Under the pieces are notes generated by a model. It did no database searches and was not told where the DNA came from. It saw only the letters and a list, made by a program, of their open reading frames with translations. This document shows, one piece after another, positions 1-42,530 of a stretch of DNA of 51,951 nucleotides (position 1 is its first letter; each line of letters opens with the position of its first letter). The stretch spans positions 1-51,951 of the forward strand of contig NZ_KE383861.1 in NCBI RefSeq assembly GCF_000422485.1. Direction: 5' to 3'. This DNA is from Paenibacillus pasadenensis DSM 19293 (GTDB taxonomy: Bacteria > Bacillota > Bacilli > Paenibacillales > Paenibacillaceae). Position numbers and translations under genes: made by a program.

Positions 1-290
<290 letters not shown>

Positions 291-4420: not shown

Positions 4421-4692
4421 GAACCGTGCACCTGCCCTCGATCCATGCGTCCCAGCCGGCACTCCTGCTCCCAGCTCGGGCCAGGCGTCCCTCCGGCACA
4501 TGAACGGACTTGCTTACGGCTGCTTCCTTCCGGACCTGACCGGGTTCACAAGCGTCCATTGCGGAGGACCCGTCCGTCAACACTGTTCCTAGGCGCCAAA
4601 CGCTGCAACGCATAACCTACGGCAGGAATTCAACCTCGCTATAGCGGATTGCGAGTTACAGGGCACCGCTACCTCCCCGTCTAGCACGGCAG
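4421..4692 (-). ncRNA. ffs: signal recognition particle RNA, large (Bacillus) type
   Basis: The minus strand contains the Ffh-binding domain GTCAGGTCCGGAAGGAAGC and, upstream, the Alu-domain sequences GGGGAGGTAGCGGTGCCCTG and CAATCCGCTATAGC. The RNA begins near CCTGCCGTGCTAGACGGGG and ends near GGTGCACGGT, which gives about 272 bases, the size of the Bacillus scRNA. It has its own promoter (4699-4727) and terminator (4360-4402). In Bacillus scr also precedes dnaX. Here the tadA gene normally on its other side is replaced by the lipoprotein/rpmE block. Confidence 0.96.
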
Positions 4693-34019: not shown

Positions 34020-35774
34020 TCACTGCGCTCCGGCGTAGTAGGAGCGCAGCGCGTCGGCGATGCCGAGCGGGTTGCGCCGCAGATCCTTGGCGCTGAAGAA
34101 CAGCTCGCCCGTCACGGAGCCGGCCAGCTGGTTGTAGTCGAGCTGGCGGACGATCTCCGACGACGACTGCCAGCCGGCCTCGGTCGTGCCGAGCTTGTAC
34201 GGCGAGTGGCCGATGTACAGGTCGACGCCGGTGCCGCGCACCGTGCGCTGCCACCAGTCCGCCACCTTGCCGTACGGCACGGTCGGGTGGGCGAAGCTCC
34301 AGTAGATCTGCGGCGCGACGTAGTCGAGCCAGCCTTTCTGCACCCACAGGCGGACGTCGGCGTACATGCTGTCGTAGGCGGTCACGCCCGCCTTCGTCTC
34401 GGAGCCGGATGGATCGGTCGACTGGTTGCGCCAGACGCCGAACGGGCTGATGCCGAACCGGATCGAGGGCTTCGCCGCGTGGACCGCCCGGTCGAGCTGC
34501 TCGACAAAGGCGTTGATGTTGCCGCGCCGCCAGTCGCCCTTGGACAGGAGCGTCCCGGCGCTGTACAGCTTGTACGTCGCTTCGTCGTCGAACGCCGAGC
34601 CGGACGGGTAGAAGTAGTCGTCCAGATGGATTCCGTCCACGTCATATCGCGCCGCCACCTCCACGATCGCGTCGATGACCGCCTGGCGCGCCGCCGGGAT
34701 GCCGGGGTTGACGTACAGCTTGCCGCCGGAGTTCACGATCCACTCCGGATGCTGGCGCACGATGCTGCCCGCATCGAGCTGGGCCGGATCGGCCGTGCTG
34801 GCCGCGCGGAACGGATTGAACCAGGCATGCAGCTCCATGCCGCGCCGATGGGCCTCGTCGATCATGAACGCCAGCGGATCGTAGTCCGCCTTGAGCCCCT
34901 GCTTGCCGGTGAGAAACGCGGACCACGGGCTGAGCAGCGTCGGATACAAGGCGTCGCCCGCCGGACGCACCTGCACGAACGCCGCGTTCATGCCCATCGC
35001 CTGCAGCTCGTCGAGCAGCGCCGTGAACTCAAGCTTCTGCTTGGCGCTGTCGTTGCTCTTGGCGGAGGCGGCGCTCGGCCAGTCGAGGTTGTAGACGGTC
35101 GACACCCATGTCCCGCGCAGCTTGGCCGGGGCGCCCGGGCCCGGCACGACCTGGCCGGGGGTCGGCGACGGCGTCGCGCTCGGGACGGGACTCGTTCCCG
35201 GCGTCGCGCTCGGCGCCGGCGTGGCGCTCGGATTCGGACTTGGGCTCGGCGTGGCGCCCGGGCTCGGCGTCGTGCCGGGGGTCGCACTAGGCTCGCCGCC
35301 GGGCGAGGTCAGCTTGACGGTCCGGTCGGCGCTGCTCCAGGCGACGCCGAGCCCGAGCTGCTCGCCGACGAAGCGCAGCGGCACCATCGTGCGGCTCTGC
35401 TTCATCTGCACGGAAGCGTCCAGCTTCACGCGGGCTCCGTTCACGGTCGCGTAGCTTTGTCCCATGACGAGCGAAATTTCGCTGCCGGACATCGCGATGT
35501 CCGCCCGGCGCTCCTTGGCCGACCAGCTTACGGATGCGCCGAGCCCTTCGCTGACGACGCGCAGCGGCACCATCGTCACGTCCGCCTTGGGCACGATATA
35601 AGGAGGCGCCTCCGAGACAAGCGCCTGCCCGTCCAGGTACAGCCGGATCTGCGCCGCCGCTTCGGCCTGGCCGGGCACGGCCGCCGCGCCCGTTCCGAGC
35701 AGGGCCGCCAGCGACAGCGCGAGCCGCCTGCGGGCGGCGCCGGACGTCCGGTCCGGTTTCCTTGCTTGCTTCAC
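34020..35774 (-). CDS. secreted family 10-like glycoside hydrolase (GHL10) with stalk-type N-terminal domain
   Basis: A 584-residue exported protein. It has a signal peptide (ending near GQAEAAA), a copper-amine-oxidase-N-like domain (two repeats of TMVPLRVVSEGLGASVSW type, about 45-165), a Pro/Ser/Thr linker with ATPSPSPNPSATP repeats (about 166-215), and a TIM-barrel GHL10 domain (RGTWVSTVYNLDWPS, then GMELHAWFNPFR, DGIHLDDYFYP, YVAPQIYWSF). Such enzymes act on peptidoglycan or related polymers. The GTG at 35774 has GGAAGGAA about seven bases upstream and gives a proper signal peptide. It converges on the glucanase gene with a shared terminator. Confidence 0.9.
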   Translation of the reverse strand: MKQARKPDRTSGAARRRLALSLAALLGTGAAAVPGQAEAAAQIRLYLDGQALVSEAPPYIVPKADVTMVPLRVVSEGLGASVSWSAKERRADIAMSGSEISLVMGQSYATVNGARVKLDASVQMKQSRTMVPLRFVGEQLGLGVAWSSADRTVKLTSPGGEPSATPGTTPSPGATPSPSPNPSATPAPSATPGTSPVPSATPSPTPGQVVPGPGAPAKLRGTWVSTVYNLDWPSAASAKSNDSAKQKLEFTALLDELQAMGMNAAFVQVRPAGDALYPTLLSPWSAFLTGKQGLKADYDPLAFMIDEAHRRGMELHAWFNPFRAASTADPAQLDAGSIVRQHPEWIVNSGGKLYVNPGIPAARQAVIDAIVEVAARYDVDGIHLDDYFYPSGSAFDDEATYKLYSAGTLLSKGDWRRGNINAFVEQLDRAVHAAKPSIRFGISPFGVWRNQSTDPSGSETKAGVTAYDSMYADVRLWVQKGWLDYVAPQIYWSFAHPTVPYGKVADWWQRTVRGTGVDLYIGHSPYKLGTTEAGWQSSSEIVRQLDYNQLAGSVTGELFFSAKDLRRNPLGIADALRSYYAGAQ

Positions 35775-36011
35775 ATTCTCATTCCTTCCCCGATAGCATG
35801 CTGAATCTTGCGTCATGGCAACGCTTAGTTAGACGCCGTCTCCGAAGAGGAAGTTGCTGGATAAGCCTCGATAGGCGCGAGCGGAAGAGAAACTGCTTAA
35901 TTTCGCAAGAAGATGCGGAAAGGCGGCGCCTGATGCCGAAGAAGGCGGAATCCGCCCGATTTCTGATCTTTTCATAATATTCTGATTATTTAATCAATTG
36001 TAAAGATGAGC

Positions 36012-36017
36012 TATAAT
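36012..36017 (+). promoter_or_regulatory. -10 element of the candidate RNA at 36021
   Basis: Perfect TATAAT seven bases ahead of the GCACTCC that opens the closing stem. The AT-rich upstream stretch has only a weak -35 (TTTAAT, about 17 bases upstream). Confidence 0.6.
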
Positions 36018-36020
36018 GAA

Positions 36021-36343
36021 GGCACTCCTCACAGGAAGGGGATAGTCCATTGGAGACGGTAAGCGAAGCATGTCCCCGGCTGGAAGGCAACACGTTCCGG
36101 TCGGTGAAGCTGGCTCCCCGTGCAGGGCCGAGCGGACATGCGGGTACAGAAGCTGAAATCTGTTGCGCACACGAACCTGTGGTACATTCTGTATGGAGGA
36201 AACGAAATCTGAGACGGAAGCAAGCGTTAGGCTACGCAAGCTGCTGGGAATGGAGTGTCAGTGTCTAATTGAATAGGAACCGGTTTTGCAGGAGATAGGG
36301 CTTCTGGTTGTCAGCCGACAAGCAGAGGCCCTATTAGCGTTTT
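36021..36343 (+). ncRNA. candidate novel structured RNA
   Basis: Between the -10 element (36012-36017) and a strong terminator (36294-36343), 5' GGCACTCC (36021-36028) pairs with GGAGTGTC (36252-36259). Inside, GCATGTCC (36068-36075) pairs with GGACATGC (36133-36140) around a hairpin CGGCTGGAA/TTCCGGTCG, and GTACAGAA (36144-36151) pairs with TTCTGTAT (36187-36194). The motif GAGACGG(T/A)AAGC occurs on both sides (36053 and 36211). No convincing protein is encoded. It fits none of RNase P, tmRNA, SRP, 6S, T-box or the riboswitches I can recall. Confidence 0.55.
36294..36343 (+). terminator. terminator of the candidate RNA
   Basis: ATAGGGCTTCTGGTTGTC / GACAAGCAGAGGCCCTAT with loop AGCC, followed by TAGCGTTTT. 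The tail overlaps the -35 of the next promoter. Confidence 0.8.
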
Positions 36344-36394: not shown

Positions 36395-36982
36395 ATGCCG
36401 CTGCACATTCTCGACCGTCTCGACCATCCTCTCTGGCCCGCCGCGCGGGCCATCTACGAACGCTCCTTCCCGCCTCACGGGCGCAAGCCGGAGGCGCTGC
36501 TGCGCCGCATGCTGGAGCGCGGCCAGGGGTATGTGTTCGTGCTGGCACACGAGGACTCGCAGGCGCGCCTTCCCCCGGCAGCCGCGATGGCGCTAGCCGG
36601 CCCGGGCGGGAGCGGGCTTATCGTCGACTACCTCGCCGTCGACCCGGCGCTGCGCGGGCAGGGACTCGGCAGCCGGCTGCTGGACGAGCTGGAGCTCTGG
36701 GCGCTGGAGCGGACGTCCGCGAGCGCGCTCGTCATCGAGACGGAGGCCGGAGCAGGCAAAAAGAACGAGGGTCGACGCGTATTTTGGGAGCAAGCCGGCT
36801 TTATTGCCCCGGACGGGTATGTGCATCGCTACATCTGGGTGCCGGAGCCGTATGCGGCGATGTACCGGCCGCTGCCCGGACGCGAAGGCGGCCTGCTGCC
36901 TCCTCCAAGCGGCAGGCAGCTGTTCCACTGGATAGAGGGATTTCATGCTCGGGCCTACCGCGGGTTCCGCGAGGAGGAGTAG
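36395..36982 (+). CDS. GNAT family N-acetyltransferase
   Basis: A 195-residue acetyltransferase. The acetyl-CoA site is IVDYLAVDPALRGQGLGSRLL (two adjoining motifs, about 75-95), with the usual C-terminal GNAT segment VFWEQAGFIAPDGYVHRYIW. AGGAGG lies eight bases before the ATG. The substrate is unknown. Its own promoter lies at 36340-36368, and a 15-bp minisatellite starts just after the stop. Confidence 0.9.
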   Translation: MPLHILDRLDHPLWPAARAIYERSFPPHGRKPEALLRRMLERGQGYVFVLAHEDSQARLPPAAAMALAGPGGSGLIVDYLAVDPALRGQGLGSRLLDELELWALERTSASALVIETEAGAGKKNEGRRVFWEQAGFIAPDGYVHRYIWVPEPYAAMYRPLPGREGGLLPPPSGRQLFHWIEGFHARAYRGFREEE

Positions 36983-36994
36983 ACGAGGCTTTAG

Positions 36995-37232
36995 CCGGCG
37001 GGCTGGGCAGCCGAGCCGGGCAAGTCGAGTCGGGGGCGTCGGGCTGGGGCTGTCCGGCTGGGGCCGTCGGGCTGGGGCATTCCGACTGGGGCATTCCGGC
37101 TGGGGCCGTCGGGCTGGGACCGTCGGGCTGGGGCCGGCGGGCTGGGCAGCCGAGCTGGGCAAGTCGAGTCGGGGCAGTCCGGATAGGGCAGTCCGGATGG
37201 GGCCGTCGGGCTGGGGCAGTCCGGCTGCTCAG
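36995..37232. repeat. 15-bp minisatellite with a 40-bp duplication
   Basis: About fifteen degenerate copies of a 14-15-bp unit close to GGGGCCGTCGGGCTG. The start and middle share an almost identical 40-bp block beginning CCGGCGGGCTGGGCAGCCGA (36995 and 37134). Open frames through it are Gly/Ala/Arg-rich by-products of the repeat. Confidence 0.85.
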
Positions 37233-37312
37233 AGGCCTCGGCAAAGAGCCGCTCTTTGGCCTGGAAAGGGACGTCGCCGGCAGGCTTGTCAGGCATCCGC
37301 TTCACCGTGAAT

Positions 37313-37508
37313 TCTAACGACGCGTCATCTCGTTAGACGCCATAAAACAGACCTTCGAAAAACGTAACGACTCCTCAACTTGTTAAAATCGAATTCGGGC
37401 CCAGAATCAGAGCGAAATAGACCTGACTTGGCGTCTAACGAGCTGATTCGTCGCAAGAAATCGCGAAACCCTCTCAAACCTCTTCTTACGATCTGATTCG
37501 TCGTTAGG
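37313..37508. repeat. four copies of a 25-bp hairpin, TCTAACGA-N9-TCGTTAGA
   Basis: Copies at 37313-37337 (perfect arms), about 37363-37387, 37434-37458 and 37484-37508, with decaying arms but always a 9-base loop (CGCGTCATC, CTCCTCAAC, GCTGATTCG, TCTGATTCG). The surrounding DNA is less GC-rich than the rest of the window. No gene is visible. Confidence 0.7.
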
Positions 37509-42365: not shown

Positions 42366-42520
42366 CAGTTCAAACATGCCGAGTTCCATGACTATGGAAA
42401 CGGGGGAACCATCTCAGGGTGAATTGATTTCGCCCTCCTCGCCGCAAGGCAGGAAGGCCGAGAAATCATAGGGAACCTTCAACCGAACCCCACAGCTAAC
42501 CTCGTAGGCTCTGGAAGGAG
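42366..42520 (+). promoter_or_regulatory. cyclic di-AMP riboswitch (ydaO/yuaA type)
   Basis: The region carries the conserved segments of the ydaO leader: CGGGGGAACC, GGGTGAATT, AGGGAACCTTC-AACCGAACCC, and CACAGCTAACCTCGTAGGC directly before GGAAGGAG. In Gram-positive bacteria this RNA binds c-di-AMP and represses cell-wall hydrolase and potassium/osmolyte genes. It ends at the ribosome binding site of the NlpC/P60 gene. The 5' boundary is approximate, and I saw no strong promoter between 42208 and 42366. Confidence 0.93.
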
Positions 42521-42530
42521 CACTTCAGCT

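Follow-up and report, generated by a model that had tools for sequence, protein, structure and literature searches.

Judged from compensatory changes among its homologues, the element that we studied in the window (the whole analysed stretch of 51,951 nucleotides from Paenibacillus pasadenensis DSM 19293) is a structured RNA with covarying helices, and it belongs to an apparently undescribed family that is common in Paenibacillus and its relatives. The putative ribosome-binding signals of this family are well supported by the alignments. We suggest that this new RNA family of the Paenibacillales and scattered other Bacilli may act by engaging ribosomes, a reading to which we give somewhat less than an even chance. 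The comparison of genomes shows, at the level of aligned sequence, the start codons, the in-frame stops of a 3′ mini-ORF, the hairpins, the tandem arrangement and a promoter element. Because the features kept across genera are what an initiating ribosome reads, and not a message, an RNA that takes up ribosomes would be the simplest reading.

Distribution and Novelty of the RNA Family

The blastn search with the element matched 63 of the 197 genomes of the family, and the first alignment had two conserved end blocks and a variable middle. Covariance models were built for the 5′ module (R1) and the 3′ module (R2), and a wider model (R3) was used as well. R1 matched 104 of 197 family genomes (11 of 19 genera) and, at E up to 0.01, 153 of 296 genomes of the order (28 of 48 genera); in the class, it matched 22 of 398 genomes. 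R3 matched 62 of 118 family genomes and 27 of 398 class genomes, the latter in 17 of 146 genera. Twelve of these 27 genomes belonged to the order; outside the order, eight were strong matches (E below 1e-9) from six families, and seven further ones, G561 among them, were weak (E 2e-5 to 7e-4). When named genomes were scanned with a pattern, 94 stretches matched; the 80 of them that were listed belong to Paenibacillus or Cohnella, with one 'Bacillus sp.' record in addition. The window's own genome held a single copy. The first inspection of the letters (hereafter the sequence-only reading) had proposed a search for homologues in relatives, and conservation proved to be wide, across the Paenibacillales and in scattered other Bacilli.

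That reading had also assigned the element to no known family, and this held: no Rfam 15 family, the 6S RNA family included, scored above its gathering threshold in the window element. The permissive Rfam 15 search of the element gave two matches, both far below gathering. In 18 homologue-bearing loci, no match fell at the element, and the one cspA match (L265, 375-723) lay outside it. The window copy was also searched by blastn against plasmids and phages, together with an exact pattern scan of viral contigs, and gave no match; a phage or plasmid origin was therefore rejected. Among the literature matches listed, made up of titles and abstract openings with subscription journals mostly outside, there was no description of this RNA, and the string 'Paenibacill' is absent from the main text of a paper on non-coding RNAs in 50 genomes. 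The accessible text of an RNA-seq paper on P. riograndensis gives 27 small RNAs, all but 3 without an assigned function. Related literature on minigenes, stabilisers and non-coding RNAs includes PMC8708949, PMC8309854, PMC3997798, PMC11109978 and PMC5670726.

Locus and Modular Architecture

On the + strand, the element has a long divergent ORF (minus strand, 34020-35816) upstream of it and the gene of a GNAT acetyltransferase (36395-36982) downstream. The downstream neighbour was convergent, on the same strand and lacking in 75, 39 and 2 of 116 loci, respectively, and the flanking genes vary between genera. Because of the frequent convergent neighbour and the differing flanks, the status of a free-standing RNA and not the leader of a gene is supported, in agreement with the sequence-only reading, and a cis-acting attenuator or riboswitch regulating the neighbour was rejected for want of a fixed same-strand gene downstream. 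The promoter that had been noticed overlapping the hairpin tail was recovered as well, as a promoter-like TTTTCA (36340) to TATACT (36368).

Elsewhere, the window has a c-di-AMP riboswitch (RF00379) at 42367-42525 (+) and an SRP RNA at 4424-4689 (-). The 5′ portion of a 16S rRNA lies at 1-290 (-), which suggests that the start of the contig falls within an rRNA operon. Behind the GNAT gene, positions 37000-37250 hold degenerate, GC-rich repeats in tandem, of the form GGGGCCGTCGGGCTG or GGGGCAGTCCGG. The sequence GTTAGACGCC occurs at 35828-35837, 37332-37341 and 37430-37439 (the last as complement), on both sides of the locus.

Across species, the architecture is one to about five tandem 5′ modules followed by one 3′ module. 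Genus g7 has approximately four 5′ modules in tandem, spaced roughly 180-450 nt, with up to five matches in one genome; the tandem unit is 80 nt in genome G243, and G289 has three 5′ modules. R2 (E up to 0.1) found a same-strand downstream 3′ module in 17 of 20 loci, which were chosen mostly for arrays, and found none at L127, L129 and L139. By a simple pattern, which undercounts relative to the covariance model, the 139 parsed loci had 1, 2, 3 and 4 modules in 122, 10, 4 and 3 cases, respectively. At L059 (G057), the 5′ module is partially duplicated in tandem about 125 nt apart, and the start codon is kept in both copies.

Promoter and CodY-like Box

The -10 hexamer TATAAT, read from the sequence at 36012-36017 (+), places the transcription start probably near 36024. 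The sequence-only reading had taken it as the RNA's own promoter, at the right distance from the first arm of a long-range pairing; the hexamer stands, but the -35 hexamer TTTAAT (35989-35994, +) is a poor match, and the promoter scan rule did not report the promoter of the window RNA. Loci with a perfect GAATATTTACAA have TTTACA as -35. This 12-mer, which contains the -35, was perfect in 59 of 139 loci and had one mismatch in 11, and L265, L268 and L253, far outside the family, were among the loci with the perfect form. Together with its left flank it reads AATWWTCWGAATATT in most of the 51 tabulated boxes.

The -35 hexamer of the window is overlapped by a CodY-like box, AATATTCTGATTATT (35976-35990, +), with 3 mismatches to the consensus AATTTTCWGAAAATT; relatives match better. 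At most 2 mismatches were found in 33 of 108 distinct loci compared with 0.26% of shuffles, and at most 3 mismatches in 65 of 108 compared with 2.6% of shuffles. The box is asymmetric, its right half being far better kept than a symmetric CodY site needs. The CodY gene is present in this genome. Some g2 copies, L009, L012 and L021 among them, have TGTACACT as their -10, at a position farther upstream, and a longer leader before the module.

Ribosome-Binding Signals of the 5′ Module

The best-kept block of the family is GRRAGGGGAUAGUCCA, directly 5′ of a start codon. The sequence-only reading missed that the block is an extended Shine-Dalgarno sequence followed by a start codon, as it missed the tandem 5′ modules of other species and the tiny ORF that ends at the 3′ hairpin foot. 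In the window, the block is GGAAGGGGATAGTCCA (36034-36049, +), with a predicted duplex of -17.1 kcal/mol with the 16S 3′ tail; the alignment of 102 modules gives TTG at 36050-36052 (+) as the start codon, and the near-invariant RNA motif AGCGAAGC (36062-36069, +) stands between the start codon and hairpin P2. The start codon was present in 102 of 102 aligned modules (ATG 63, TTG 38 and GTG 1). This model-based alignment set no start-codon requirement and is the independent evidence on this point, the locus-parsing patterns behind other start-codon counts demanding NTG. In alignment A5, the weak R1 matches fall to the E-value limit and eight sources were left out, and its rows are not independent, with array copies and close relatives included.

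The 16S 3′ tail of the host, which we take to be GGAUCACCUCCUUUCUA, was not found in the genomic sequence searched, and a search with the 5′ part of the 16S rRNA in two relatives likewise gave nothing. With this assumed tail, the blocks of the 102 modules were predicted to pair at a median of -17.3 kcal/mol; the mean was -10.3 for shuffles, 2.3% of which reached that median, and windows downstream gave -6.7. Anti-SD-binding sites numbered 3.2 per RNA compared with 2.1 in shuffles and were higher in 34 of 41 loci; the window RNA, with 3 compared with 2.7 in its own shuffles, was hardly above. The predicted openness of the Shine-Dalgarno block, 0.45, was only slightly above the 0.40 of the whole RNA, and the block was more open in 72 of 106 loci.

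Codon 3 is a stop in 40 of 102 aligned modules (TAG 31, TAA 6 and TGA 3), and only 8 ORFs exceed 25 codons, which argues that no shared protein starts at the module; this candidate was rejected. The two-codon form was found in 77 of 166 pattern-found modules, the pattern requiring a start codon. The window copy itself is not a two-codon minigene, and in the 5′-module stop frequencies by frame, frame 0 was not separated from the other frames. Because AGCGAAGC varies too little for kept codons, we take it as kept at the RNA level.

The 3′ Mini-ORF

The 3′ module usually has GGAG followed by (T/A/G)TGAAT. In the window, the alignment gives GGAG at 36252-36255 (+) as the Shine-Dalgarno sequence of a 3′ mini-ORF, TTG AAT AGG AAC CGG TTT TGC AGG AGA TAG (36269-36298, +), which has 9 codons and ends in the foot of the 3′ hairpin. 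In 121 of 127 copies, the stop came after 6-9 codons, at the hairpin foot, and all three stop codons are used. The same ORF length was found in 105 of 110 distinct linkers compared with 25% of shuffled linkers; since the sequences share ancestry, this contrast is indicative and not a probability. Among the six exceptions, L130, L260 and L262 were mis-picked starts, L025 and L056 were real, and the sixth was L129. Twelve of the 139 parsed loci gave no 3′ start of the usual form; L203 and L243 among them are cut by the locus end, and L131, L145, L253, L265 and L268 were read by eye, L253 via L266, which is the same place. L015, L054, L057, L067, L070, L185 and L223 form a subgroup with ATG as the 3′ start, and its closely read members have a different 3′ hairpin sequence (CCTCCGTTTATC..ATAAACGG).

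Covarying Hairpins

The perfect internal 8-bp stem that had been seen in the letters is present and forms the hairpin P2 (36068-36141, +), with arms 36068-36075/36134-36141 and a variable interior. Among 22 modules aligned with MAFFT, 5 of 8 pairs had two-sided changes and 97.7% of cells were paired; in 101 distinct model-aligned modules, the corresponding values were 7 of 8 and 94.7%. The covariation score was reached by 0 of 500 shuffles in either alignment. In the unsupervised scan of alignment A3, which is fitted to P2, the P2 pairs ranked 1, 2, 3 and 5, and no helix besides P2 was found in the module. Because the sequences are related and the alignments A3 and A5 had each been fitted to P2, these shuffle contrasts are indicative and not probabilities.

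The 3′ hairpin (36295-36334, +, arms 36295-36312/36317-36334) is conserved in sequence, and 13 of its 17 pairs changed on both sides, with 0 of 500 shuffles scoring as high. Its G.G mismatch is kept in most of 23 sequences, with a standard pair in 5 of 23. Covariation, which the sequence-only reading had proposed to test, came out in favour of both P2 and the 3′ hairpin. The hairpin is a probable terminator, with a weak U tract to 36343; of the strong terminator claimed earlier, the long hairpin stood, but the U tract is weak and the terminator rule found none. RNAalifold on the full-length alignment gave little beyond these two hairpins because the middle varies in length. The region folded better than dinucleotide shuffles in two tests (z -2.3, 2 of 100 as good; z -2.9, 0 of 100 as good).

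The proposed long-range helix P1 fared less well. The complementary 8-mers GGCACTCC (36021-36028) and GGAGTGTC (36252-36259) exist, and the pairing is strong in the window's clade (-14.7 kcal/mol in the window), but over 86 single-module loci it was no better, at -6.80 kcal/mol, than the -6.79 with shuffled leaders, and P1 was rejected as a general feature. The first GG of its arm lies probably upstream of the start site, and in the minimum-energy fold the 5′ end pairs with AGGAG (36290-36294) and not with GGAGTG. The two copies of the GAGACGG repeat were likewise found (GAGACGGTAAGC at 36053 and GAGACGGAAGC at 36211), but they differ by a one-base gap, and the second copy is already altered within the genus (GAGAAGG, AAGAAGG); a role for the repeat was not supported.

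The 72-Codon ORF of the Window's Genus

The small ORF at 36050-36268 (+) has 72 codons and a strong ribosome-binding site, and its stop TAA abuts the TTG of the 3′ mini-ORF, which suggests that translation of the two may be coupled. All 8 of the genomes examined in the genus keep this frame open, at 68-72 codons. The dN/dS was 0.13-0.27 in the seven genome pairs compared, and third positions took 18 of 25 changes between the window copy L001 and L003 (p 9e-5). The open frame, the low dN/dS and the third-position bias make the ORF look protein-coding in this genus; the 72-aa product had no Pfam match. The statement of the sequence-only reading that the interval lacks a credible ORF was therefore wrong for 36050-36268, and a purely non-coding RNA does not fit the coding selection seen in this genus. 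Here the RNA would be dual-function, with an ORF that looks to be selected at the protein level. Outside this genus, the same ORF is mostly too short. Inside the RNA of L040, L044 and L047 (Cohnella-type), the 3′ module is directly preceded by another short, basic ORF (MKSKKITI...), which has a GGAGGT site of its own.

Discussion

RNA decoys are known to control abundant machines, such as 6S RNA for RNA polymerase and CsrB for CsrA. 6S RNA mimics DNA for RNA polymerase; as a global machine-binding RNA it offers an analogy, the present RNA being one that would mimic mRNA for the ribosome. To our knowledge, no chromosomal RNA has a conserved architecture of ribosome initiation sites without a message. 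SR1 and RNAIII are dual-function small RNAs and, like the RNA of the window's genus, combine a free-standing, regulatory-looking RNA with a small ORF; in contrast to them, it is the initiation signals and not a peptide that are conserved across genera here.

We speculate that each 5′ module would present a start codon together with a Shine-Dalgarno pairing of unusual length to the 16S 3′ tail, with the covarying hairpin P2 predicted to begin at about +19 from the start codon and a stop that in many species would end translation after two codons. A second putative site at the RNA end would open the ORF of 6-9 codons that stops at the 3′ hairpin foot. Ribosomes may load on the module sites in the cell, and loading without a protein being made may be the purpose itself, occupying or titrating initiating ribosomes, perhaps when starvation lifts CodY repression. 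Copies with more modules would then hold more ribosomes. In the window's genus, the 5′ ORF would have become, or remained, a real 72-codon gene. Some observations weigh against the ribosome-engaging reading. Ordinary mRNAs have ribosome-binding sites too, and in one clade the ORF looks to encode a protein under selection. The conservation of AGCGAAGC and P2 would be without explanation in a pure decoy. The small gain in openness of the Shine-Dalgarno block, the anti-SD site count of the window RNA, the stop frequencies by frame in the 5′ modules, the loci without the usual 3′ start and the asymmetry of the CodY-like box count on the same side. A more specific version is a 6S-like regulator of ribosomes, a starvation-induced mimic of 1-5 tandem initiation regions with ORFs of two to nine codons that holds or wastes initiating ribosomes or initiator tRNA, and in which a new small protein gene arose in one genus. 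We consider it possible but doubtful.

Known minigenes offer the closest comparison for the module. Like its two-codon forms in many species, the minigenes axe-txe mg2, EHEC LEE1/LEE4 and B. subtilis ycbK consist of a Shine-Dalgarno sequence, a start codon, one or few codons and a stop, as described in the accessible text of PMC8708949. According to the same text, minigenes with strong sites hold ribosomes and protect RNA, some inhibit growth when overexpressed, the axe-txe minigene did not do so, and in EHEC LEE4 it is ribosome occupancy rather than the peptide that matters (PMC8708949). The minigenes described there act in cis in a gene leader, whereas the RNA described here would be transcribed on its own, and it has tandem modules, a hairpin that covaries and a 3′ hairpin besides.

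The ribosome-binding modules might only protect the RNA, initiating ribosomes at its 5′ end blocking RNase J1 or Y in the manner of a STAB-SD, with AGCGAAGC, P2 or the 3′ hairpin acting in trans on a protein or on target RNAs; we hold this to be about as doubtful as the 6S-like regulator. A STAB-SD reportedly has no start-codon requirement and no modules and is always part of an mRNA, unlike this RNA. Such polypurine stabilisers of Bacillus resemble the conserved block in being Shine-Dalgarno-like and near the RNA 5′ end, as they appear in the accessible text of two reviews (after Agaisse and Lereclus 1996), and pairing with the 16S 3′ end, a mark of a STAB-SD, is predicted here with the assumed tail. 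The near-invariance of AGCGAAGC at the RNA level and the protection of the LEE4 mRNA of EHEC by ribosomes on a six-codon minigene (described in PMC8708949) also suit protection with action in trans. A stabiliser, however, could do without the start codon that all 102 modules keep, and it needs neither an in-frame stop at the 3′ hairpin foot nor internal tandem copies. The dN/dS and third-position bias of the 68-72 codon ORF, open in 8 genomes, together with the second short ORF and its GGAGGT site in some Cohnella-type copies, would fit a small-protein gene with an ordinary leader, the conservation outside the genus being that of regulatory leader sequence. We regard this as unlikely: in 40 of 102 modules the third codon is a stop, ORFs longer than 25 codons number only 8, and the 72-aa product lacks a Pfam match.

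A ribosome that ends the 3′ mini-ORF could also melt the terminator and let transcription enter the downstream gene. A first in-frame stop at the base of the hairpin, as 121 of 127 copies have it, would serve such a translation-coupled attenuator, and a same-strand gene, the GNAT acetyltransferase gene in the window, follows in 39 of 116 loci; with a neighbour that is convergent in 75 of the 116 loci and not conserved between genera, we think this very improbable. We give still less credit to a sponge role, with CsrA or another GGA-binding protein as the target. By eye, GGA motifs are many, and AAAGGAG is often found in the P2 loop, but roughly half of the 102 distinct modules have lost the GGA at the start codon (column G51, A43, C4, T4), and the start codon and AGCGAAGC stay where it is lost.

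If the ribosome-engaging reading is confirmed, the family would represent a new level at which translation is controlled in Paenibacillus and its relatives among the Bacilli, and a direct test case for the biology of minimal ORFs, and the window's genus would hold a protein gene inside a regulatory RNA.
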